A stretch of 40,342 bases of DNA from Gammaproteobacteria bacterium (GTDB lineage Bacteria > Pseudomonadota > Gammaproteobacteria > Arenicellales > Poriferihabitantaceae), in assembly GCA_011523765.1 (NCBI GenBank), contig WTGA01000070.1, positions 1 to 40,342 of the forward strand, given 5' to 3'. Position numbers and translations under genes: made by a program. Under the pieces are notes generated by a model. That model did not search any database and was not told the DNA's origin. It saw nothing but the letters and a program-made list of their open reading frames with translations. Within the stretch, counting starts at the first letter, position 1; every line of letters begins with the position of its first letter. Below are positions 133 through 20,531 of the stretch, in pieces.

Positions 133-1731
133 ATGACACTAGAGACAGAAATAAAGAAACTTCAACAAAAGGTTTCCGAAAACCAAATGAGCCGGCGGCG
201 CTTCATGCAGGGTGCCATGGCACTGGGCGTGGGGGCCATGGCACCCATGCTGTACAGCCAGGCCGCCAAAGCCGCACCGAAGATGGGAGGGGTCTACCGG
301 ATGGGCCTGGGCGGCGCCAACACCGGCGACTCCCTGGACCCTGAGAACAACGGGGATGTGTTCATGATCAACATGAACCAGGGTTGCGTTCGCAACGCAC
401 TGGTGGAGGTCAATGCCAGTGGACAGGCGGTTCCCGAACTTGCGGAATCTCTCGAACCGACGGCCGATGCGTCGACCTGGCGGGTCAAGCTGAAACCCGG
501 GGTGACCTTTCACAATGGAAAAGACCTGACCCCGGACGATGTCATCGCGTCCATTGAGCACCACCGGGGGCCGGATTCTACCTCCGCAGCAAAATCCGTG
601 GCGGAATCCATGGGAGAAATCGCCAAAGACGGGGACACCGTGGTGTTTACCCTGGAAAGCGGAAATGCTGATTTTCCCTATCTGCTCAGCGACTACCATG
701 TCCTGATGGGCCCGGTTGACGATACCGGAAAGGTGGACTGGATGTCGGGCCATGGCACCGGCCCGTACAAGGTCGTGGAGTTCGAGCCGGGTGTTCGAGC
801 CACCATGGTGCGCAATGAAAACTACTTCAAGGAAGGCGAAGGCAACTTTGACGAAGTGCACATCACCGCGATCAATGATACCGCGGCGCGGATGAACGCC
901 ATGGTCACCGGCCAGGTGGATGCCATTGCCCGCTGTGACCTGAAAACGGCCGGCCTGCTGGAGAACAAACCGGATGTGGATGTGCTCCAGGTCCCCGGTA
1001 CCAAGCACTTCACCTACCCCATGGATATGCGTGCGGCACCGTTTGACAACAGCGATGTGCGGATGGCCCTGAAGTACGGGATTGACCGGCAGGGTTTCGT
1101 GAATACGGTTCTGCGTGGCTATGGTTCGGTGGGCAACGACCACCCGATCTCGGCCAGCCAGAATTACCATGCCAAGGACCTGCCGCAACGTGAATACGAT
1201 ATTGAAAAGGCGAAATGGCATTTGAAACAGGCCGGCATGGAGACGCTTGACCTTGAAATATCCGCTTCGGACGCCGCGTTCGGCGGGGCGGTCGATGCGA
1301 CCGAACTGTACGCCGAGCAACTCAAGCCCGCCGGCATCAACCTGACCGTCAAGCGCGTTTCTCCCGACGGGTACTGGGACAATGTCTGGATGCAGGTGCC
1401 GTGGAGTGCCTGTTACTGGGGTGGACGGCCCACGGCAGACTGGATGTTCACGATTGGCTACAAGGCCGGCGGGAGCTGGACGGACACCTTCTGGAACCAT
1501 GCCCGCTTCGAGGAACTGCTGGTCGCGGGACGTGCGGAGCTGGATGAAGCCAAGCGCAACGACATCTACGTCGAAATGCAGACCATTGTCAGCAATGAAG
1601 GCGGGGTGGTTGTTCCCTGCTTCGCCAACAACGTCGATGCCGCCTCCACTTCGCTGGGCAAGCCGGATAGAATCGCCGGGAACTGGGAACTCGATGGAGG
1701 ACGAAGCGCCGCCCGATGGTGGTTTGCATGA
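133..1731 (+). CDS. Tat-exported peptide-type ABC transporter substrate-binding protein
   Basis: Family 5 (DppA/OppA-type) extracytoplasmic binding protein of 532 residues that would capture the substrate in the periplasm for the permeases and ATPase that follow. The ATG at 133 is chosen because GGAGGAAAA lies about 8 bases upstream; an in-frame start at 103 adds ten residues and lacks such a site. Residues 20-26 read SRRRFMQ, a twin-arginine motif, followed by a hydrophobic stretch and an AKA-A-like cleavage site near residue 45. The unusual part is the charged 19-residue segment before the Tat motif. The mature part has the family pattern (VKLKPGVTFHNGKDLTPDDV, and a C-terminal segment with Trp-rich ligand-site residues). 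The operon continues 1843-5296 on the same strand after a hairpin. The ligand cannot be read from sequence; peptides, opines or betaines are all possible. Confidence 0.93.
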   Translation: MTLETEIKKLQQKVSENQMSRRRFMQGAMALGVGAMAPMLYSQAAKAAPKMGGVYRMGLGGANTGDSLDPENNGDVFMINMNQGCVRNALVEVNASGQAVPELAESLEPTADASTWRVKLKPGVTFHNGKDLTPDDVIASIEHHRGPDSTSAAKSVAESMGEIAKDGDTVVFTLESGNADFPYLLSDYHVLMGPVDDTGKVDWMSGHGTGPYKVVEFEPGVRATMVRNENYFKEGEGNFDEVHITAINDTAARMNAMVTGQVDAIARCDLKTAGLLENKPDVDVLQVPGTKHFTYPMDMRAAPFDNSDVRMALKYGIDRQGFVNTVLRGYGSVGNDHPISASQNYHAKDLPQREYDIEKAKWHLKQAGMETLDLEISASDAAFGGAVDATELYAEQLKPAGINLTVKRVSPDGYWDNVWMQVPWSACYWGGRPTADWMFTIGYKAGGSWTDTFWNHARFEELLVAGRAELDEAKRNDIYVEMQTIVSNEGGVVVPCFANNVDAASTSLGKPDRIAGNWELDGGRSAARWWFA

Positions 1732-1777
1732 TTGAGTGATCGCTTCACCCAGTCACGTGCATTCATGTTGCAAGGAG

Positions 1778-1811
1778 AAAAAGGCGGCCGGCCCTGTCCG
1801 GCCGCCTTTTT
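1778..1811 (+). terminator. Strong hairpin plus T-run between binding protein and permease genes
   Basis: Perfect 14-base arms (AAAAAGGCGGCCGG at 1778-1791 and its complement at 1798-1811) enclose a six-base loop, and the 3' arm ends in five T residues. This is the shape of an intrinsic terminator. It lies 46 bases after the binding-protein stop and 31 bases before the first permease. In ABC operons such elements usually let partial read-through, so the binding protein is made in excess over the membrane components. Confidence 0.85.
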
Positions 1812-1842
1812 CGCGTGAACCGCTCCGGTCCCGCCGACCCCA

Positions 1843-2802
1843 ATGAGCAATTCACTGTTTCTAATGATCGCCAAGCGCATCGGCCTTGGCTTTTTCACCT
1901 TGCTCGCCATCTCGCTGCTGATTACCGTTGGTGTTGAGGCCCTGTCCGGTGACATCTGTACCGCCATCCTTGGCCAGATGGCCTCTGAAGAGACCGTCGC
2001 CGCCTGTCATGCACGCCTCGACCTGGACCGTCCGGTCATGGTCCGCTATGTCGAGTGGCTGGTCAATTTCGTGCAGGGAGACATGGGCCGTTCCATGGCC
2101 AATGACCGGACCGTCATGGAACTGGTCAGCGCAAGGATCGGCAATACGCTGTACCTGGCTGCGTTTTCATCCATGGTGGCCATTCCACTGGGCATCGCAC
2201 TGGGGGTGGTGGCCGCCCTGTACCGGAATACCGGATTTGACCGCGGGATTTCGGTCACGACATTGAGCACGATTTCCGTTCCGGATTTCTTCGTGGCCTA
2301 TATCCTGATGGCCCTGTTTGCGGTGAAATTCAGTATTTTTCCGGCCATTTCAAATGTCGCGGGCAGCATGGGGTTCTGGGAACGGGCCTATGTATCCGCC
2401 CTGCCCGTGTTGACCCTGACCCTGATCTCCATCGCACACCTGATGCGGATGACCCGGGCCTCCATTGTCAACCTGCTGGCCAGCCCCTACATTGAAATGG
2501 CCAAACTGAAGGGCATCAAGCCCGGCCGGGTGATTGTCAAACATGCCCTGCCCAACGCCTGGGCACCGATTATCCAGGTAGTCATCCTGAACATCGCTTT
2601 CATGGTCGTCGGTGTCGTGATCATTGAAGTGGTGTTTGTCTATCCCGGTTTGGGAGCGCTCATGGTGGACTCGGTACAACTTCGCAACATGCCCGTCGTC
2701 CAGGCAACGGCCATGATTTTCGCATCCGCCTATGTGCTGCTCAACCTGTTGGCGGATGTCCTGGCCATTCTTGCCAACCCGAGACTGAGACACCGGAGGT
2801 AG
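1843..2802 (+). CDS. Peptide-type ABC transporter permease, DppB-like
   Basis: 319-residue inner-membrane permease of the binding-protein-dependent family, forming half of the substrate channel. An N-terminal membrane segment (about residues 9-31, FFTLLAISLLITVGVEAL) precedes a periplasmic region. Several further hydrophobic segments follow, then a cytoplasmic coupling loop of the EAA type (EMAKLKGIKPGRVIVKHALP, about residues 220-239) that docks onto the ATPase. Length and order match DppB/OppB proteins. No clear Shine-Dalgarno precedes the ATG at 1843, which fits dependence on read-through from the upstream gene. The next gene starts six bases after this stop. Confidence 0.93.
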   Translation: MSNSLFLMIAKRIGLGFFTLLAISLLITVGVEALSGDICTAILGQMASEETVAACHARLDLDRPVMVRYVEWLVNFVQGDMGRSMANDRTVMELVSARIGNTLYLAAFSSMVAIPLGIALGVVAALYRNTGFDRGISVTTLSTISVPDFFVAYILMALFAVKFSIFPAISNVAGSMGFWERAYVSALPVLTLTLISIAHLMRMTRASIVNLLASPYIEMAKLKGIKPGRVIVKHALPNAWAPIIQVVILNIAFMVVGVVIIEVVFVYPGLGALMVDSVQLRNMPVVQATAMIFASAYVLLNLLADVLAILANPRLRHRR

Positions 2803-2808
2803 GTCGCC

Positions 2809-3639
2809 ATGAAAGTGCTTGCATTTGTCCGGAGCCTGAACTGGAGTGCCCGGATCGGGCTCGGAATCATCGTATTCTTCGGGTTCTGCGCCGCCTTTGC
2901 TCCCTGGCTGGCCCCGTACGGGGAAAGCGAAATTGTCGGGGATGTCTGGGAGCCCATCGGTGGCGAGTTTCTGTTCGGAACGGACATCATTGGCCGGGAC
3001 CTGCTGTCCCGGCTGATTTTCGGTGCCCGCAATACCATTGTGCTGGCCCTGTTGACGACCGCGTGCTCCTTTACCCTGGGGGCATTGATGGGGTTTTTGG
3101 CAGCAACCATGGGAGGATGGGTGGACCAGGTTCTCAGCCGCATCGTGGATATCATCATTTCCGTCCCCACCCTGATTTGCGCCCTCATCGTGGTATCTGC
3201 CGTGGGCACCTCCTTTTTTGTGCTGGCGACCGTCATCGGCATAATCTACGCCATGCCCGTCTACCGGATTGCCCGGGCCGTGGCCATGGATGTGGAAGTC
3301 ATGGATTACGTGGAAGCGGCCCGGTTGCGCGGCGAAGGGCTGTGGTGGATCATGAAGCGGGAAATCCTCCCCAACACGATGACCCCCCTCGCGGCCGAGT
3401 TCGGGTTGCGGTACTGTTTCGTGTTTCTCCTGATCAGCGGATTGAGCTTCCTGGGCCTCGGCCTGCAGCCTCCCCTGGCAGACTGGGGAGCGATGGTACG
3501 GTCCAATTCGGAAGGCATCGCCTGGGGATACCTCCACCCCCTGATTCCAGCCGCCTGCATCGCCCTGCTCACGATTGGAATCAACCTGCTGGTGGATTCC
3601 CTGGTCCACAAGGCCAGCGGCCTGCGCGACGATCACTAG
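2809..3639 (+). CDS. Peptide-type ABC transporter permease, DppC-like
   Basis: 276-residue inner-membrane permease, the second half of the channel. The N-terminal membrane segment (about residues 16-36) is followed by the DppC-type sequence FGTDIIGRDLLSRLIFGAR around residues 62-80. Five more hydrophobic segments and an EAA coupling loop (YVEAARLRGEGLWWIMKREI, about residues 166-185) follow. It is shorter than typical DppC proteins (about 290-300) because the N-terminal tail is brief. An AGGTAGG sequence ahead of the ATG at 2809 serves as ribosome-binding site and overlaps the end of the upstream permease. The ATPase gene begins ten bases downstream. Confidence 0.92.
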   Translation: MKVLAFVRSLNWSARIGLGIIVFFGFCAAFAPWLAPYGESEIVGDVWEPIGGEFLFGTDIIGRDLLSRLIFGARNTIVLALLTTACSFTLGALMGFLAATMGGWVDQVLSRIVDIIISVPTLICALIVVSAVGTSFFVLATVIGIIYAMPVYRIARAVAMDVEVMDYVEAARLRGEGLWWIMKREILPNTMTPLAAEFGLRYCFVFLLISGLSFLGLGLQPPLADWGAMVRSNSEGIAWGYLHPLIPAACIALLTIGINLLVDSLVHKASGLRDDH

Positions 3640-8924: not shown

Positions 8925-11027
8925 CTATCCTCCATTCCCCATTTGCTTTTCGAGAGCTTGCCGCACCAAACCCATGACATAGGGCAACTCTTCTGGCTTA
9001 TTCATCTCTATCTCGATATCACCGTTACCCCAACGCCCTTTGTTGGTAACATCTTTAGCAAGGCTTTTCGGATCACGCAATTCGGCGAATTGCATGTTGA
9101 GCGTCAGTCTGAGAAGATTCTTCAGTGGCACAACATCTACAAAGTTAGTCTCAGCTTTATAGGCAACGTAAAGCTTGAGGAAGTCTTCTCTTACACATGG
9201 GTCAAGCAACAACACCTGCTTGCGAAAAGCATTAAAAAGGTCGCGCATTGATGAGCCCTTCGCAAGATTGGAATGGTCATCAATCGTGTAGCGTTCCATG
9301 TTCTCATCCGGGCGTGCTCTGTACAATTGAAGGCATGCAACTGACAATGAAGGCACTGCCCACACCCGCGTAGCCATCGAAGCAAGCCTGTCAGCGCGTG
9401 CCTTGATGGCAATCTCATCCCAAACTTCATAGTTACCAATATCTTCGTTCACCTTCAGGGGGCTTTTTCTGAACCCCTTTTCCATATCACGCTTTTCTGC
9501 AAATGGACGATCACTGTATTCAGAATTATATCCAGTGAGTGTAAGGTTTCCGAGAGTATGCAACCAGGTTTCCCGCACGCGTTCCCATTCAGGACCGAGT
9601 TCATTTTTCCATTTGGAGGACAGGTTCTCATTTTGCGGCAGTATGTGTTCAATCGTATATTCTTCGACCGGAACATATTCTTTGCGTCCGTAATTCTCAA
9701 GGCGCCGCAACCAGTAGCTCCGGAGCTTAAAATGATAGAGGTCACGTATAACGAATTCTCTTTTAAATTCTTCATCTTTGGGGAAGCGGCGGTAAGAAGG
9801 CATCGTCAGAAAATGCGCTTTAATGCTTTCCAGATACCGATCTTTTTTCAGGGACCGTCCAAATGTGGTGAAAGTCGTGTTCAATGAGTTTGTTGGGATG
9901 TTACACACCTTGCGACGAAATACGTATGCCTCGACCAACCGCACAGCAGATTCGAAATCTTCATCAGTTAACCTGTTGTTCACAAAGTCGTCGTAGAGTT
10001 CGAGCAAAAATGGATAGACGACTTTCACTTCCAGTTCCCGGAGGTCACGAAAGGCCTTTGCCAGTTGCTTGTTAGGCTCTTTATCCAGCTCCATAGCACA
10101 GTAATAACCGGAAAAAGTATGGATATCTTCAACCAGTGCTTCTATTCCTGCAACTTCTATTTCAGGCGTGCTCGCATATGACTTGAATGCCTTGTACACT
10201 GCCCTGCGATTTGGGATATCTCCTGTTTTAAGTGTCAGGTAGTCCCGCATGAAACGATCAAAATGGGAACTGTAGCCCTCTTGGCCGAAAGCGATTTCCA
10301 TTGGCCGCCAGTAGTCTGTGTACAGCCGGTTCTGCTCATCAGGCCCCAGACTCATCAGAATGAAATTACGGATCAGGTCAGCTTGGCTGAGGTCGAGACC
10401 AGTCGAATTCATGCTCTCGAAGATGAGTTGCGGGTTGTCCTGATTTCGACTGAGCGCGATGTCCACAACGACTAATTTAGCAAGACCACGACAAAGCCCG
10501 GAAAGGTCATCGGCAATCTCTTTTATCTTTTTCTGAAAAAAGGTGAAGTTCTCGGCAATTCGTAACGACGAGCGGACCGCGGACCATGGTTTTTGCTGAA
10601 TTAGTGCCAAAAGACTGTCTTTGTCAGTTTGTGTAAGCAACAGCTTGAATCTGTCTTCTCCTTCCTCCAAGTTGTTGAGCAGGTAATAGTTGCGTAACTT
10701 TTTGGCCGAAAATCCACTCAATGGTTCGCGGTCTCCCAATTGTTGCGCGAGGGCTTCGAGAATCAGGGTGATCGTAGTCAGTCTTTGCTGACCATCGATC
10801 ACGAGAAGTGATGACTGGCTGGAAACCTGATAAATGTCCTGCTCAATATAGACGATGGACCCTACAAAATGAGCGGATATCTCACTATTACTGCCGGTGC
10901 GCAGGATGTCATCCCAAAGCTGAAGGCACTGGTGCTCGGTCCAGGAATAGGTGCGCTGGTAAATCGGAATGATGAATTGCGGTGACTTTTTCAAAAAGTT
11001 GAGAAAATTGGTTTCTGTAGCTTTCAT
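8925..11027 (-). CDS. GmrSD-like DUF262/DUF1524 type IV restriction nuclease with DUF5655-like tail
   Basis: A 700-residue protein likely to act in defence against phages with modified DNA. The N-terminal DUF262 (ParB/Srx-like NTPase) domain shows IPIYQRTYSW (residues 21-29) and DGQQRLTT (78-85). The middle carries the DUF1524 His-Asn-His nuclease region, with YTIEHILPQN near 457-466 and GNLTLTGYNSEYSDRPFAEK downstream. The last ~120 residues (LLRLTLNMQFAELRDP, then GRWGNGDIEIEM) resemble DUF5655. GmrS and GmrD functions are thus in one chain, as in BrxU/SspE-type proteins. The ATG at 11027 is chosen because the protein then begins just before the family motif; an upstream ATG at 11093 falls in the repeat. 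The gene is A+T-richer than its neighbours, suggesting transfer. Confidence 0.9.
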   Translation of the reverse strand: MKATETNFLNFLKKSPQFIIPIYQRTYSWTEHQCLQLWDDILRTGSNSEISAHFVGSIVYIEQDIYQVSSQSSLLVIDGQQRLTTITLILEALAQQLGDREPLSGFSAKKLRNYYLLNNLEEGEDRFKLLLTQTDKDSLLALIQQKPWSAVRSSLRIAENFTFFQKKIKEIADDLSGLCRGLAKLVVVDIALSRNQDNPQLIFESMNSTGLDLSQADLIRNFILMSLGPDEQNRLYTDYWRPMEIAFGQEGYSSHFDRFMRDYLTLKTGDIPNRRAVYKAFKSYASTPEIEVAGIEALVEDIHTFSGYYCAMELDKEPNKQLAKAFRDLRELEVKVVYPFLLELYDDFVNNRLTDEDFESAVRLVEAYVFRRKVCNIPTNSLNTTFTTFGRSLKKDRYLESIKAHFLTMPSYRRFPKDEEFKREFVIRDLYHFKLRSYWLRRLENYGRKEYVPVEEYTIEHILPQNENLSSKWKNELGPEWERVRETWLHTLGNLTLTGYNSEYSDRPFAEKRDMEKGFRKSPLKVNEDIGNYEVWDEIAIKARADRLASMATRVWAVPSLSVACLQLYRARPDENMERYTIDDHSNLAKGSSMRDLFNAFRKQVLLLDPCVREDFLKLYVAYKAETNFVDVVPLKNLLRLTLNMQFAELRDPKSLAKDVTNKGRWGNGDIEIEMNKPEELPYVMGLVRQALEKQMGNGG

Positions 11028-11070
11028 GATTACATTTTTACGTGTGTAGTCGATAAGGACTTTCGGCATT

Positions 11071-11091
11071 CCCCATTTGGGCAACGCACTC
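11071..11091 (+). repeat. Right copy of imperfect direct repeat flanking the nuclease gene
   Basis: CCCCATTTGGGCAACGCACTC differs from the left copy (8456-8476) at three positions. Plus-strand reading through this copy gives an open stretch of about 60 codons (P-H-L-G-N-A-L-N-Y, then SELLRKVEAYFPEINQYLI) ending at a stop near 11250. This may be the end of a decayed gene. I cannot assign it to a family. Confidence 0.4.
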
Positions 11092-11286
11092 AACTACCGA
11101 CCAAATTACTTCTCTGAATTGCTCCGGAAAGTTGAAGCTTATTTCCCAGAAATCAACCAATACCTGATCACAGGAAGCTTGAGCCTCTTCGCCATGTCCT
11201 GGGTCGACAGATTGGGTTACGCCACGAACCTTTTCAGGATTTCCCCAGGATAGCGGATTGGTGACGGGTTCACGCTGGTCGCTCCA

Positions 11287-15030: not shown

Positions 15031-17742
15031 ATGACCGTTGAACTGGGGATCACTCCGCTCGGACACCTGCGCTGCTACCGCCCTTCCGTGGACACCTTGA
15101 CGGACACCTCGAGGATGGCCGTCCCGGCCGTGGTCGAAAACGCTTTTGGCAAGGGGATCGGGGACGGGTTATTTGCTCTGTCCGCCTATAGAAATCCGGT
15201 TGATCTGCCTTCCGGATTCCGGTTCTGGCGCGAATTTGCCTGTGCGTACATGACCACGCGTTGCCGGCTGCCTGCATCCGCTGCCAACCCGCTGGAAGCG
15301 ATCGCCTTTTCGGCACAGGAAACATCTGTCCCGCCATTGAACAACGCTCCCCCCATGAAGGGGGCCGAGTACCTGTCACAGGCGGTGTATGAGCACACCT
15401 GGACAACGATGGACCTCTGGCTTTGCGAACAGGTGAACCATGCGGGAGTCAGCCTTGCCGAATTCCTTGCCGACCAGGCCCCATTGTGGCACCAGCTCGG
15501 CCGTGTATGCTTTCATCTTGCCGAAAACAAACAGGACAATGAGTATCCCTTCGCGTTTATGGCAACCTATATTGCGGAGATTTCCAGCCAGGGAAACGCG
15601 AAACACCAGCCGCTGCACCGGGCTCTTCAGCAATACGCGGGGGCCCGGAACAAGCAACAGTTGATCAACCTGCTTTCCCCGATCCATCACGCGAGCAAAC
15701 GCAGCGAACTGGTCCGGGAACTGCTGGAGGAGGGAGATATCTATTATCCTCTGGCCTGGCTCCCGGATGAAGCCTACCGTTTTCTCCGGGACCTGCCGAC
15801 GTTTGAGATGGCCGGCCTTTCCGTCCGGTTGCCCGACTGGTGGAAAAAACGGGTCCGCCCCCAGGTCAGCGTCAATATCGGCAATCAAAAAGGCCAGAAC
15901 CTGACGGCAAAATCGCTTCTCGACTTCACTGTCGAGCTGACACTCGGCGACCAACCCCTGACCGAGGAGGAATGGCGTCAGTTGATGGACTCCGAACAGA
16001 GCCTGGTTCTGTTTAAAGGCCAGTGGATTGAAGTCGACCGGGAAAAGCTGGCCGAAGCCCTGGAACATTGGAAAAACGTGGAAGAGGAGATCGCGGCCGA
16101 CGGAATTTCCTTTATTGAGGGAATGCGGTTGTTGGCGGGCTCTCCCATGGATTTGTCCACGGCGACTGACAGCAGCCCTGAATACCAATGGTCCTCGGTG
16201 CAGGCAGGAACCGCCCTGAGGGAACTGCTGGACAAAGTCCGCCATCCCGACATGCAGGCGTCCACCCGGGTCGGCAAAAACCTCCGGGTTTCCCTGCGAC
16301 CTTATCAACAGCACGGATTGAATTGGCTGTGGCATCTGAGCCAGTTGAAGCTGGGGGCCTGCCTTGCAGACGACATGGGACTTGGCAAAACCATTCAGGT
16401 GATCGCGCTGTTGCTGGCGATCAAGAACCAGCATCTCAACCAACCTTCGTTGTTGGTTCTGCCGGCGTCCCTGCTCGGGAACTGGCAGGATGAGCTGGAA
16501 AAATGCGCTCCCTCGATCACCAGCCTGATCATTCACCGTTCATACGGACACAAAGGCACCGGGGTGGAGGCCGAGGAGCCCGCCAGCGACCCGGTGTTGG
16601 GCAAAGACCTGGTCATCACCACGTATGGCATGTTGTCCCGCGAAACGTGGCTGCTGGAAGTGCCGTGGTATCTGGTGATCCTGGATGAAGCACAGGCCAT
16701 CAAGAACCCGGGGACCCGCCAGGCGAAAGCGGCCAAGGAACTGAAAGCCGAATCACGGATCGCCCTGACCGGCACCCCCGTGGAAAACCGGCTTGGCGAC
16801 TTGTGGTCGCTGTTTGATTTTCTTTGCCCGGGACTGCTTGGCTCTGCCGGTCGCTTCAAAGCCTTTGTCAAATCACTCGAAGGCCGCAAGCAAGACCAGT
16901 ATGCACCGCTCAGAAACCTGGTCCAGCCCTATATCCTGCGCCGCCTCAAAACCGACAAGACCATCCTGACCGACCTGCCCGAAAAAACCCAGGTCCACGC
17001 CTACTGCATTCTCAGTAAAAAACAAGCCATGCTCTATCAAAACTCGGTGGAATCCCTGGCCCGTGCTCTGGAGGAAGCCCGGGATGAATCCGGTGATATG
17101 CAAAGAAAGGGGATGGTATTGTCCTATATTTTGCGCTTCAAGCAGATCTGCAATCATCCCTCCCAGTGGTTGGGCGATGAAGAATATCGTCCGCAGGACA
17201 GTGGTAAATTTGCGCGCCTGGCGCAAATCTGCGAGGAAATCGCCCTGCGCCAGGAAAAAGCCCTGGTGTTTACCCAGTATCGGGCTATGATCGGACCCTT
17301 GGCGGATTTTTTGAACACCTGCTTTGGCCAGCCCGGCCTGACTTTGCATGGCGGTACTGCGATCGGGCAACGCAAGAAACGGGTGGATCTTTTTCAACGG
17401 GAAGAGGGACCTCCCTTTTTTGTCATCTCGCTGAAAGCCGGTGGGGTCGGTTTGAACCTGACCCAGGCCTCCCATGTGATTCATTTCGACCGCTGGTGGA
17501 ATCCGGCCGTTGAAAACCAGGCTACCGACCGGGCCTTCCGTATTGGGCAACAGCGCAATGTGCTGGTCCACAAAATGGTTTGCCAAGGTACCGTCGAGGA
17601 CAAGATTGACCGGCTGATTACCGAGAAAACCGCCCTCGCGGACAATCTTCTGGGCGGAGGGGCTGAAACGTTGTTGACTGAAATGGGCAATGAAGAGTTG
17701 ATACAACTCGTAACCCTGGACATCGATAAAATCGGATCCTGA
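15031..17742 (+). CDS. SNF2/SWI2-family ATPase (DUF3670-type) helicase-like protein
   Basis: 903-residue cytoplasmic DNA-translocating ATPase. Residues ~1-410 form the bacterial SNF2-associated region, with TAKSLLDFTVELTLGDQPLT (about 290-310) as in PF12419/DUF3670. The motor follows: ADDMGLGKTIQVIALLLAI (about 445-463, Walker A), VILDEAQAIKNP (about 549-560), ALTGTPVENRLGDLWSLFDF, and in the second RecA lobe SLKAGGVGLNLTQASHVIHF and QATDRAFRIGQ (about 829-839). No nuclease or methylase domain is fused. The partner gene with a SWIM zinc finger begins 17 bases after the stop, the well-known bacterial SNF2-SWIM pairing, which suggests a joint DNA-repair or chromatin-like role. The Shine-Dalgarno before the ATG is weak. 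Confidence 0.93.
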   Translation: MTVELGITPLGHLRCYRPSVDTLTDTSRMAVPAVVENAFGKGIGDGLFALSAYRNPVDLPSGFRFWREFACAYMTTRCRLPASAANPLEAIAFSAQETSVPPLNNAPPMKGAEYLSQAVYEHTWTTMDLWLCEQVNHAGVSLAEFLADQAPLWHQLGRVCFHLAENKQDNEYPFAFMATYIAEISSQGNAKHQPLHRALQQYAGARNKQQLINLLSPIHHASKRSELVRELLEEGDIYYPLAWLPDEAYRFLRDLPTFEMAGLSVRLPDWWKKRVRPQVSVNIGNQKGQNLTAKSLLDFTVELTLGDQPLTEEEWRQLMDSEQSLVLFKGQWIEVDREKLAEALEHWKNVEEEIAADGISFIEGMRLLAGSPMDLSTATDSSPEYQWSSVQAGTALRELLDKVRHPDMQASTRVGKNLRVSLRPYQQHGLNWLWHLSQLKLGACLADDMGLGKTIQVIALLLAIKNQHLNQPSLLVLPASLLGNWQDELEKCAPSITSLIIHRSYGHKGTGVEAEEPASDPVLGKDLVITTYGMLSRETWLLEVPWYLVILDEAQAIKNPGTRQAKAAKELKAESRIALTGTPVENRLGDLWSLFDFLCPGLLGSAGRFKAFVKSLEGRKQDQYAPLRNLVQPYILRRLKTDKTILTDLPEKTQVHAYCILSKKQAMLYQNSVESLARALEEARDESGDMQRKGMVLSYILRFKQICNHPSQWLGDEEYRPQDSGKFARLAQICEEIALRQEKALVFTQYRAMIGPLADFLNTCFGQPGLTLHGGTAIGQRKKRVDLFQREEGPPFFVISLKAGGVGLNLTQASHVIHFDRWWNPAVENQATDRAFRIGQQRNVLVHKMVCQGTVEDKIDRLITEKTALADNLLGGGAETLLTEMGNEELIQLVTLDIDKIGS

Positions 17743-17759
17743 GACCGGAAAAATATAAC

Positions 17760-18779
17760 ATGGCATATGATTACGATCCCTATGTCCCCGTCGCCAAACG
17801 GCGGGCAAACGCCCAAAAAATGATCCACAAGTTACGCAAACAGGGCGTCGAGGTTTGTCCCATTGCAGTTCAAGGCAGAAAGATTGTACACACTTTCTGG
17901 GGCGAGGCCTGGTGCAACCACCTGGAGAGATTCAGTGACTACGCGAATCGCCTGCCTCGCGGCAAGACCTATGTACGCAATGGATCAGTATGCCATCTGG
18001 AGATCAGCAAAGGCACCGTCAAGGCGCTTGTCAGCGGGTCACGTGTCTACCAGGTCAGGATCGGGATCAGTCCCCTGGAAAAACCGGTCTGGGATATGGT
18101 CCAGAAAAACTGCATGGGCCAGATAGGTTCCCTGCTGGAACTGCTTGAGGGAAAACTGTCCGATCAGGTGATGGAAGTGGTCACGCATCCCCAAACCGGA
18201 CTGTTTCCGCAGACCCGGGAGATGCGGTTGGACTGCAATTGCCCCGACTATGCAACGCTGTGCAAACACATCGCGGCCGTTTTCTACGGTATTGGTGCCC
18301 TGCTCGACAAGCAGCCCGAACTGCTTTTCAAACTGCGGGGGGTCAACCAGGACGAGTTGATCAGCCCGGACATGGAGATGCCGGCCGGAAGTGGAAAACG
18401 GCGGCGTCTCGACAGCAATGTCGGTGAAATGTTTGGGATCGAACTGGACAGGGATACGGGGCCGGATGGCAGTGCGCCTGCTCCGGCGGATCGTTCCACT
18501 CACCGGGACAAGGCAACTGAAACTCCGCCTGCAAGACGCCATACGAAACCAGCCAAACGAAAAACACCGTTTAACCCCACTCCTGAAAATATATTGCGCC
18601 TGCGTCAGCGGTTGGGCCTGAATCCGACCCAGTTTGCCAGGTTGCTGGATGTCAGTGTTTCATCGGTTTCACTGTGGGAAAGAAAAGGCGGTCGCGTGAA
18701 TTTGCAAAAGAAATCCAGACTGGCACTGATGAACGCCGCGAAAATGGACAAGCGGAGCGTCCGGAAAAAATTGGGATGA
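17760..18779 (+). CDS. SWIM zinc finger protein with C-terminal XRE-type HTH
   Basis: 339-residue protein, probable partner of the SNF2 ATPase 17 bases upstream. The N-terminal part (FWGEAWCNHLERFSDYANRL at 46-65, then TYVRNGSV) is the conserved region of SNF2-linked SWIM proteins. The SWIM finger is Cys159-x-Cys161-x6-Cys168-x-His170 (LDCNCPDYATLCKH). After a polar linker (about 210-270, Pro/Lys/Arg-rich) comes a helix-turn-helix, residues 276-335, with LRQRLGLNPTQFARLLDV, SSVSLWERKGGRVNLQKK. This HTH tail is absent from the basic SWIM partner as I know it and would give the pair a second DNA contact. No regulatory sequence separates the two genes, so they form an operon. Confidence 0.9.
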   Translation: MAYDYDPYVPVAKRRANAQKMIHKLRKQGVEVCPIAVQGRKIVHTFWGEAWCNHLERFSDYANRLPRGKTYVRNGSVCHLEISKGTVKALVSGSRVYQVRIGISPLEKPVWDMVQKNCMGQIGSLLELLEGKLSDQVMEVVTHPQTGLFPQTREMRLDCNCPDYATLCKHIAAVFYGIGALLDKQPELLFKLRGVNQDELISPDMEMPAGSGKRRRLDSNVGEMFGIELDRDTGPDGSAPAPADRSTHRDKATETPPARRHTKPAKRKTPFNPTPENILRLRQRLGLNPTQFARLLDVSVSSVSLWERKGGRVNLQKKSRLALMNAAKMDKRSVRKKLG

Positions 18780-19289
18780 AAGTCAAACCGGGGGATGGCG
18801 TGCAGAGCTGTATACGAAATATGCGCCGGACAGGCGGATTGAAGACAGCATTCACGATGTAGACAAGGCATCAGGGTTCACCACGATTGGCGACACCACT
18901 GAAATCCCATACCCAGCACAATCCGTTGGCATATTGATGGCAAAATCTCAAGAATCGGCAAATCCATCACAAATCTCAGTACAGTGGCAGTGAGTCCCAA
19001 CCTGAACTTATGAACGACTATCCTGAAACGAGTCACAGATATACCCTTCCGGGCCGGGATTGCATTGTTCTCAACGTTAAACTATTCATCTATGTCCGTA
19101 ACATCTATGTCCGTAACAGACCCAAAGTGGCACGGGGGTTCATTGTTTGGGGGTGGCAAACGGATAATCGCACTTGAACTCCGGCAGCCTTCAGTCTAAA
19201 GCCATGCGGCAGCGTATTTGCGATACGATGGGAGGTGGCAGCCAAATCTTTGAGCAACGCTACAGACGTATTCACCTGGAAAATTAACC
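18780..19289. other. Intergenic region with 15-bp tandem repeat
   Basis: About 510 bases between the SWIM gene and the AlbA_2 gene. It holds an exact two-copy tandem repeat (19087-19116) and a 35-codon open frame starting inside it (19092-19199), which reads MSVTSMSVTDPKWHGGSLFG and continues to a TAA. No ribosome-binding site precedes that frame, so I treat it as a remnant or chance. No RNA gene is seen. Confidence 0.5.
19087..19116 (+). repeat. Two exact tandem copies of a 15-bp unit
   Basis: CATCTATGTCCGTAA occurs at 19087-19101 and again at 19102-19116 without spacer. The unit length is a multiple of three, so it preserves reading frame in the 35-codon frame that runs through it. It lies about 175 bases upstream of the AlbA_2 gene. 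Confidence 0.85.
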
Positions 19290-20531
19290 ATGCTCACTGC
19301 CGCACAGATTCTGGAAAGGATTGACACGGGTGGAAATTCAGGAATTGAGTTCCAGGAAGCCCGTATAAACAATGGGAGAGTCGCAATCCCCCATCGTGAC
19401 ATCCTGTCGGATGAACTGGCAGCCTTTGCCAATCAATCCGGCGGGACCGTGATTTTCGGCGTTTCGGATAATTCGCAACAGATTGTCGGCATTGAACCAT
19501 CGAATATCAGTGCTCTGGTCAGCTACATCAGTGAAATCTGCCACGATTCAGTTGCTCCACCTATCGTGGATTTTTATGTCGATAATGTTCTGGTGAAGGA
19601 TGCATCCGGTGATGAAATACACCTGGTCTATGTGCAGATTGAACGAAGTCTTTGGCTCCACAAAAGCCGCAACGGCTATTTCTACCGACACGGGAACAGC
19701 AAAAGGGAAATGAGCACTGAACATCTGCTACGGGTGGGGCAAAGCCGTTCACAGGCATGTATTGTTCCCTTTGATGAGCAGGCTGTCCCCAATACCGGCC
19801 GGAATACCCTGCAAAAAGACTTGTACATGCGTTTCGTTTCTGTCGACAATCCGTCATCGTTGCGCCAACGCCGGTTGCTGGTGTCATACCGCGACAGCCT
19901 GCACGCAACGGTCGCCGGAGTTTTGATGTGCAATCCCAACCCTGACCAGCATCTTTACAATAGTTGCATCCAGGCGGTTTTCTACAAAGGCAAAAACAAA
20001 GATGCCAATTACCAGATTGACGCGAAAGACTATCGCGGACCCCTGGACAAGCAAATTGTCGGTGCCTATCACTTTGTCAGCCAGTACAATCGGCTTTCGG
20101 CAAGAAAAGAGATAGGCAGGGAAGAAAGGCCGCATTACAGCATGAAAGCCGTGTTCGAAGCACTGGTCAACGCCGTCGTTCACCGGGATTATTCCATACA
20201 CGGCTCTAAAATCCGCCTGTGCATGTTTGCCGACCGGCTTGAACTCCATTCTCCCGGAGCACTCGCCAACACTCTGACCGTTGAAAGCCTGATTGACAAC
20301 CAGTTTACGCGCAATGAATTGCTGTCCCGTCTGCTGTCTGAATTGTCAATAGGCGATGAAATCGGGCAGGCAGTGAATCGAAGATATTTTCTGGAACGGC
20401 GCGGTGAAGGCGTGGGTATTATCTTCAGAGAGAGTGAGAGTCTAAGCGGCCGGAAACCCGTATATAACCTGTCTGGCGGAGAACTGAATCTCACCATTCA
20501 TGCTGCAGGGTCGCTCCAGCAATCTGATTAA
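19290..20531 (+). CDS. AlbA_2 (Schlafen-like) domain protein with HATPase-like C-terminal domain
   Basis: 413-residue cytoplasmic protein. The AlbA_2 domain covers about residues 10-125 (IEFQEARINNGRVAIPHRDI, AAFANQSGGTVIFGVSD). A C-terminal GHKL-ATPase-like domain (HATPase_c_4) shows AVFEALVNAVVHRDYSIHGS and ADRLELHSPGALANTLTVES. Such proteins are usually annotated as ATP-dependent DNA-binding helicase-like or transcriptional regulators, and several are tied to defence or RNA/tRNA cleavage through their Schlafen relationship; the actual activity here is unknown. G+C is a little lower than in the SNF2 gene. The gene is monocistronic, with a hairpin at 20550 after it. Confidence 0.88.
   Translation: MLTAAQILERIDTGGNSGIEFQEARINNGRVAIPHRDILSDELAAFANQSGGTVIFGVSDNSQQIVGIEPSNISALVSYISEICHDSVAPPIVDFYVDNVLVKDASGDEIHLVYVQIERSLWLHKSRNGYFYRHGNSKREMSTEHLLRVGQSRSQACIVPFDEQAVPNTGRNTLQKDLYMRFVSVDNPSSLRQRRLLVSYRDSLHATVAGVLMCNPNPDQHLYNSCIQAVFYKGKNKDANYQIDAKDYRGPLDKQIVGAYHFVSQYNRLSARKEIGREERPHYSMKAVFEALVNAVVHRDYSIHGSKIRLCMFADRLELHSPGALANTLTVESLIDNQFTRNELLSRLLSELSIGDEIGQAVNRRYFLERRGEGVGIIFRESESLSGRKPVYNLSGGELNLTIHAAGSLQQSD

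Follow-up and report, generated by a model that had tools for sequence, protein, structure and literature searches.

The stretch analysed here (the window) comprises the 40,342 nucleotides of contig WTGA01000070.1 (NCBI GenBank assembly GCA_011523765.1), from a member of the Gammaproteobacteria, and it carries a pair of forward-strand genes encoding an SNF2-type ATPase and a SWIM zinc-finger protein that ends in an XRE-type helix-turn-helix (HTH). The first gene (15031..17742, + strand) encodes a 903-residue SNF2/Rad54-type ATPase with a DUF3670 N-terminal region, and the second (17760-18779, + strand; 339 residues) follows 17 bp past its end. An earlier note made from the DNA alone had described this pair, a basic linker leading to the HTH and an AlbA_2/HATPase gene, labelled Schlafen-like, downstream, and had suggested that the three genes might form a defence or repair module. 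Its coordinates are exact.

In the ATPase, Pfam recognises SNF2-rel_dom (219 bits), DUF3670 (119 bits) and Helicase_C (69 bits), the motifs DDMGLGKT, LDEAQ, LTGTP and QATDRAFRIGQ are intact, and among solved structures the closest match is that of the Sulfolobus SNF2/Rad54 ATPase (1z63/1z6a, E 1e-117). The best NCBIfam match, NF058637 (SCO1167/SCO6262 family helicase), spans residues 257-896 at 555 bits, far below its equivalog cut-off of 1200, and the RapA/HepA equivalog model is not reached (44.5 bits versus 576). Neither are the NCBIfam equivalog cut-offs for Zorya ZorD (282 of 1500 bits), DISARM DrmD (101 of 950) or DpdE (40 of 500); with no equivalog model reached, membership of a known defence system was rejected for the pair. 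In PADLOC, all 25 of the listed matches of the SNF2 protein are to motor components, of SNF2 or helicase type, from known systems, and the list is long because this motor is shared across systems.

The SWIM protein divides into a core, a linker and a head. The core (residues 1-227; 17760..18440, + strand), delimited with Pfam and an alignment of relatives, contains the zinc motif C159-x-C161-x6-C168-x-H170 (18234-18269, + strand), the residues of which are invariant in relatives; the Pfam SWIM domain passes at 24.5 bits against a cut-off of 19.6, with the CxCxnCxH motif present. The core fold gave no Foldseek match at E ≤ 0.001 and has no solved sequence relative, and a second structural comparison placed ZSWIM8 at the top with a modest Z of 6.3, followed by a next match at 2.5. 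In the AlphaFold model the folded core is followed by a linker of ~60 residues (about 205-264) at pLDDT 40-53 and then by a head of five helices (residues 275-338) at pLDDT 92-98; on the gene we place the basic, disordered linker at residues 228-269 (18441..18566, + strand; pLDDT 40-59) and the HTH at residues 270-339 (18567..18776, + strand). Structurally, the head comes closest to the HTH domains of HigA2 (Z 9.9) and MqsA (Z 8.4), and restriction controller proteins appear among its Foldseek matches. Its score against Pfam HTH_3, 21.9 bits, falls just below the cut-off of 23, and we therefore name it XRE-type by its fold and its relatives, one of which (L062) passes HTH_3 at 34.4 bits; another (L066) reaches only 14.6 bits on HTH_3 and 97 bits with the clade's own HTH profile, which was built partly from L066 itself.

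The same XRE head is present on 18 further SWIM proteins (L018-L026 and L062-L070), which came from a search for relatives, a one-genome-per-species search and a class-wide draw. L018-L026 belong to gammaproteobacterial records (two Candidatus Thiodiazotropha and one Chromatiales), and L062-L070 to genomes that share their class or order with the window. Mean identity among the 19 proteins is 71% in the core, 56% in the head and 31% in the linker, the length of which ranges from 13 to 65 residues; the window core shares a mean identity of 60% with the cores of the other 18. For 28 pairs of the eight closer genes, dN/dS was 0.05-0.17 in the core, 0.09-0.30 in the head and 0.13-1.57 in the linker. 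The low values of the head and the wide spread of the linker imply that the head is kept by purifying selection while the linker drifts. The class draw yielded a close SWIM-family member (E 5e-101 or better) in 15 of 369 genomes, eight with the XRE head, five without a recognised cap, one with a possible winged HTH and one cut by a contig end, while the phylum draw yielded a member in 9 of 398 genomes, these being the window itself, five with an H-NS domain, two without a cap and one that is cut. Twelve distant SWIM proteins (L008-L016, L098-L100) have tails without net charge and do not match the HTH profile. The architecture that the earlier note did not recognise as standard is thus a real fusion, conserved in one clade and not general among SWIM proteins, and we regard it as confirmed as a clade-specific, selected feature. 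A further XRE-rich protein was seen at locus L078, where 836-1990 (+ strand) encodes 384 residues in which five XRE/HTH_3 domains follow one another (135 bits over five stretches).

In other clades the end of the SWIM protein carries something else. Five proteins (L089, L090, L092, L093, L094), which are all five SWIM proteins of one clade within a single order, end in the C-terminal DNA-binding domain of H-NS (Pfam PF00816, Histone_HNS; 45-48 bits versus a cut-off of 25.6). The named plasmid records nearest to them are those of Microvirga, Azospirillum and Rhodovastum, and their nearest rows in the core tree are Azospirillum, Rhodovastum and Acidiphilium. L107, from a Variovorax plasmid, and L076 have another ending in common, AbiEi_4-like (E 0.0019 and 0.08, respectively), that is possibly a winged HTH. 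Tails rich in lysine or arginine, with no recognised domain, occur in planctomycete, neisserial, rhizobial and Burkholderiales members, and the tail of L072 includes an extra stretch to which Pfam assigns no name. Net tail charge per residue is +0.19 to +0.23 in bare-tail and XRE members versus 0.01 in the twelve distant proteins, in agreement with the basic linker reported in the earlier note. When 26 loci were scanned in six frames with the clade's HTH profile for a hidden, frameshifted HTH past the bare tails, the scan returned a single weak match, on the opposite strand of L108 (E 0.003).

We placed these endings on a tree of 63 cores, from which the fused long proteins L096 and L097 were left out together with L101 and L102, the two frames of a broken second SWIM copy (G606:C333) whose genome carries an intact copy as well. 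The XRE rows all lie inside one starred clade of 24 rows, five of them headless (L027-L030, L071), and all H-NS rows group together in a clade of their own (98/72). At least seven changes of tail type are required, with L075 and L088 scored as lacking a cap although a contig or locus end cuts them before the tail is visible. Gain and loss of the head inside the XRE clade cannot be told apart from the tree, but between clades the occupation of one place by different folds requires separate gains. Judged from these sequences, the XRE head is one of several alternative caps that have replaced each other at the same place, namely an XRE-HTH, an H-NS domain, a possible winged HTH or a bare basic tail. 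In the open-licence literature searched, we found no description of a SWIM partner that carries such a head, be it XRE-HTH, H-NS or the possible winged HTH.

The SNF2 gene is a constant companion. It lies directly upstream of the SWIM gene in 28 of 31 loci (window included), upholding the pairing proposed in the earlier note; the other three are L024, which starts inside the end of SNF2, L068, at a contig edge, and L076. It is also directly upstream in all 12 plasmid loci (split into two reading frames in one), all eight viral-contig loci (IMG/VR) and all eight phylum-draw loci (L088-L095). Across the 31 loci SNF2 is the sole common neighbour, other families being limited to close relatives, and the reverse-strand or out-of-frame families in the neighbour listing are read as shadow frames of SNF2 and SWIM. 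No conserved nuclease, methylase or other effector was seen near the pair among these loci. Distances between SNF2 proteins correlate with those between SWIM proteins (r 0.92 over 34 loci; none of 2000 permutations as high). By gene order, the pair of SNF2 and SWIM is the unit.

We propose, with our confidence divided about evenly, that SNF2-SWIM is a Rad54-type motor on double-stranded DNA (dsDNA) that is tethered to the DNA by an exchangeable reader tail. The two products would form a two-subunit motor, in which the SNF2 subunit would translocate on dsDNA as its Rad54-type homologues do, and the SWIM subunit, as constant adjacency and co-divergence suggest, would bind the motor through its conserved zinc core. 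The basic linker and C-terminal head would act as a leash that keeps the motor on DNA, with the head, presumed to bind DNA, selecting or stabilising the loading site; proteins sitting on the DNA might then be stripped off or shifted by the motor, stalled RNA polymerase and nucleoid proteins being examples. The head differs by clade, being XRE in the clade of the window and H-NS, possibly a winged HTH, or a basic tail alone elsewhere. Roles in defence, repair, the nucleoid or transcription fit such a motor equally well.

The closest known relatives of the pair are the SWIM-associated SWI2/SNF2 (SsoRad54-type) ATPases, with which the window shares the SNF2 core and DUF3670, the adjoining SWIM gene and the nearest structure; the difference lies in the XRE-HTH, H-NS or possible winged-HTH heads borne here by the SWIM partner. 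The window also has an SNF2 motor in common with two RNA-polymerase-linked proteins, E. coli RapA/HepA, whose model it misses as noted above, and Bacillus subtilis YwqA, whose SWIM partner is presumably YwqB and which we liken to the window protein as an SNF2 protein only. YwqA is reported to occur together with RNA polymerase and to be recovered in a PcrA pull-down, and PcrA depletion is reported to be ~8-fold worse without it (PMC10804225, PMC3797733, PMC7385302). By analogy with this SNF2 protein, RNA polymerase is a candidate for the displaced target. In five loci (L018, at 434-3274, and at the corresponding place L019, L020, L022 and L025; one of the five run against Pfam) the SNF2 frame is overlapped at its start by the gene of a UvrD-like, ankyrin-repeat SF1 helicase of 945-946 residues, an arrangement that is confined to close relatives and points the same way. 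Nucleoid proteins are a bolder candidate, put forward because of the H-NS and H1-like tails.

Several observations weigh against a tethered motor of this kind. Five members of the XRE clade (L027-L030, L071) lack the HTH, which implies that it is dispensable there. The linker of the H-NS-bearing proteins is weakly basic (+0.08 per residue), the winged-HTH call relies on two AbiEi_4 matches, that of L107 below the cut-off (E 0.0019) and that of L076 at E 0.08, and no SNF2 gene lies within the 2.1 kb that precede the SWIM gene of L076. Moreover, the correlation between SNF2 and SWIM distances lends weak support to binding, since genes that are adjacent and inherited together will diverge together even when their products do not bind each other.

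Many XRE antitoxins and controller proteins repress their own operons, and the best structural matches of the window head are HTHs of such autoregulators (the HigA2 and MqsA antitoxins, with restriction controller proteins in the Foldseek list). The SWIM subunit could accordingly be a repressor of its own operon, with a head that has no role in loading the motor. We consider this unlikely, as the caps that occupy the same place in other clades, H-NS or nothing beyond the basic tail, are harder to picture as specific operator-binders. The only promoter-like site found between 14000 and 20800 does not lie upstream of the SNF2 gene, although this is a weak test.

H-NS is a xenogeneic silencer, and a head that recognises foreign or xenogeneic DNA might serve an SNF2-SWIM pair that travels on mobile elements as anti-phage, anti-plasmid or counter-defence cargo. 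The SWIM core occurs in 119 plasmid records (E 1e-3), 12 loci of which were examined, and SWIM-associated SNF2 ATPases are described in print as widespread in mobile systems (PMC5512222). A large serine recombinase (Resolvase + Recombinase) lies downstream of the pair and convergent with it in seven of the eight viral-contig loci (L141-L146, L148; the call was run against Pfam for two of the seven), the remaining locus, L147, being cut at the SWIM gene. In the window, a GmrSD-type gene (8925-11093, - strand; DUF262 + DUF1524, then DUF5655 at the C-terminus) precedes the pair by 4 kb. The stretch around this gene has a GC content of 46-48%, versus ~58% in its surroundings, and the gene is likely a horizontally acquired type IV restriction gene. 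We nevertheless judge the cargo explanation improbable: the SNF2 protein reached no defence model and the matches that PADLOC lists for it are of the motor type, no conserved effector accompanies the pair, and none of the 12 plasmid copies examined has the XRE head. The full SWIM protein was found in no phage record, the best match, in Wolbachia phage WO, covering 46% of it. YecA/UPF0149 or SEC-C genes lie close to the pair on four of the 12 plasmid loci (L104, L107, L111, L114).

The freedom of the linker in length and sequence, and the missing heads of some XRE-clade members, would also be expected if the tail were a by-product, in which a low-complexity extension drifts and has captured domains at its end by chance and without function. 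This is very unlikely given the purifying selection on the HTH and the fact that the recognised caps are all of DNA-binding kinds.

The third gene (19290..20531, + strand) is on the same strand as the pair, as the earlier note stated, though separated from the SWIM gene by 510 bp (18780-19289), and it encodes a 413-residue protein in which Pfam recognises AlbA_2 followed by HATPase_c_4. Its orthologues in five genomes of the same family (69-77% identity) lie in 5-20 kb of sequence that contains no SNF2 or SWIM match. Just before four of these five orthologues ends a PHP-domain ATPase gene, an intact trlF, and the two such genes scanned both pass NCBIfam NF045780 (TrlF family), with 566-574 bits versus a cut-off of 350; the gene upstream of the fifth orthologue (G018) is eroded, as judged by eye. 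In the window we met no intact trlF beside the AlbA_2 gene, only its last 49 codons with one in-frame stop (19138..19284, + strand; tblastn), which share 63-76% identity with the TrlF C-terminus of four sister genomes (best E 5e-18). The AlbA_2-HATPase_c_4 order is that of TrlG, which lies beside TrlF in the TRL (temperature restriction) locus TrlR-TrlF-TrlG of Photorhabdus, as described in PMC7554251. The window thus resembles TRL in its third gene, and its sister genomes do so in having trlF before trlG, whereas in the window itself nothing is left of trlF but its stop-containing end. A perfect 15-bp tandem duplication at 19087-19116, just before the trlF remnant, is perhaps a trace of the deletion.

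By orthology and position, the AlbA_2 gene is a bystander, an orphan trlG of a TRL (TrlF-TrlG) operon that lies outside the SNF2-SWIM pair. No AlbA_2 homologue was found near SNF2-SWIM at 30 relatives (21 with at least 2.5 kb of downstream sequence) or at the 12 plasmid, the eight viral-contig and the phylum-draw loci, so that the co-occurrence on which the earlier note's link between the genes depends is absent from these loci. Joint action of SNF2, SWIM-HTH and the AlbA_2 protein in defence or repair, suggested by their common strand and 510-bp spacing, is hardly credible and was ruled out as a module by the trlF remnant lying exactly between the SWIM and AlbA_2 genes, the trlF-trlG pairs of sister genomes and the AlbA_2-free relatives. 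Because of this remnant with its stop and the sister trlF-trlG pairs, SNF2-SWIM and trlG most likely meet at a deletion scar, and such a scar can make two unrelated genes resemble a module.

For the tethered motor itself, a more ambitious version can be entertained, which we hold tentatively and think rather doubtful. The Rad54-type motor and SWIM adaptor would be a modular remodeller kit, repeatedly fitted with chromatin-reading heads (H-NS, a lysine-rich histone-H1-like tail, XRE) and acting on DNA coated with nucleoid proteins; chromosomes would carry it, and so would plasmids and serine-recombinase elements, as cargo that may relieve silencing of the H-NS type there. In eukaryotes, chromatin remodellers combine an SNF2 motor with reader domains, and an SNF2-SWIM pair that has gained XRE, H-NS and perhaps winged-HTH heads at a single fixed position would parallel them. 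Of more interest than the fusion in the window is that DNA-binding heads, that of H-NS among them, have been exchanged on the SWIM partner.

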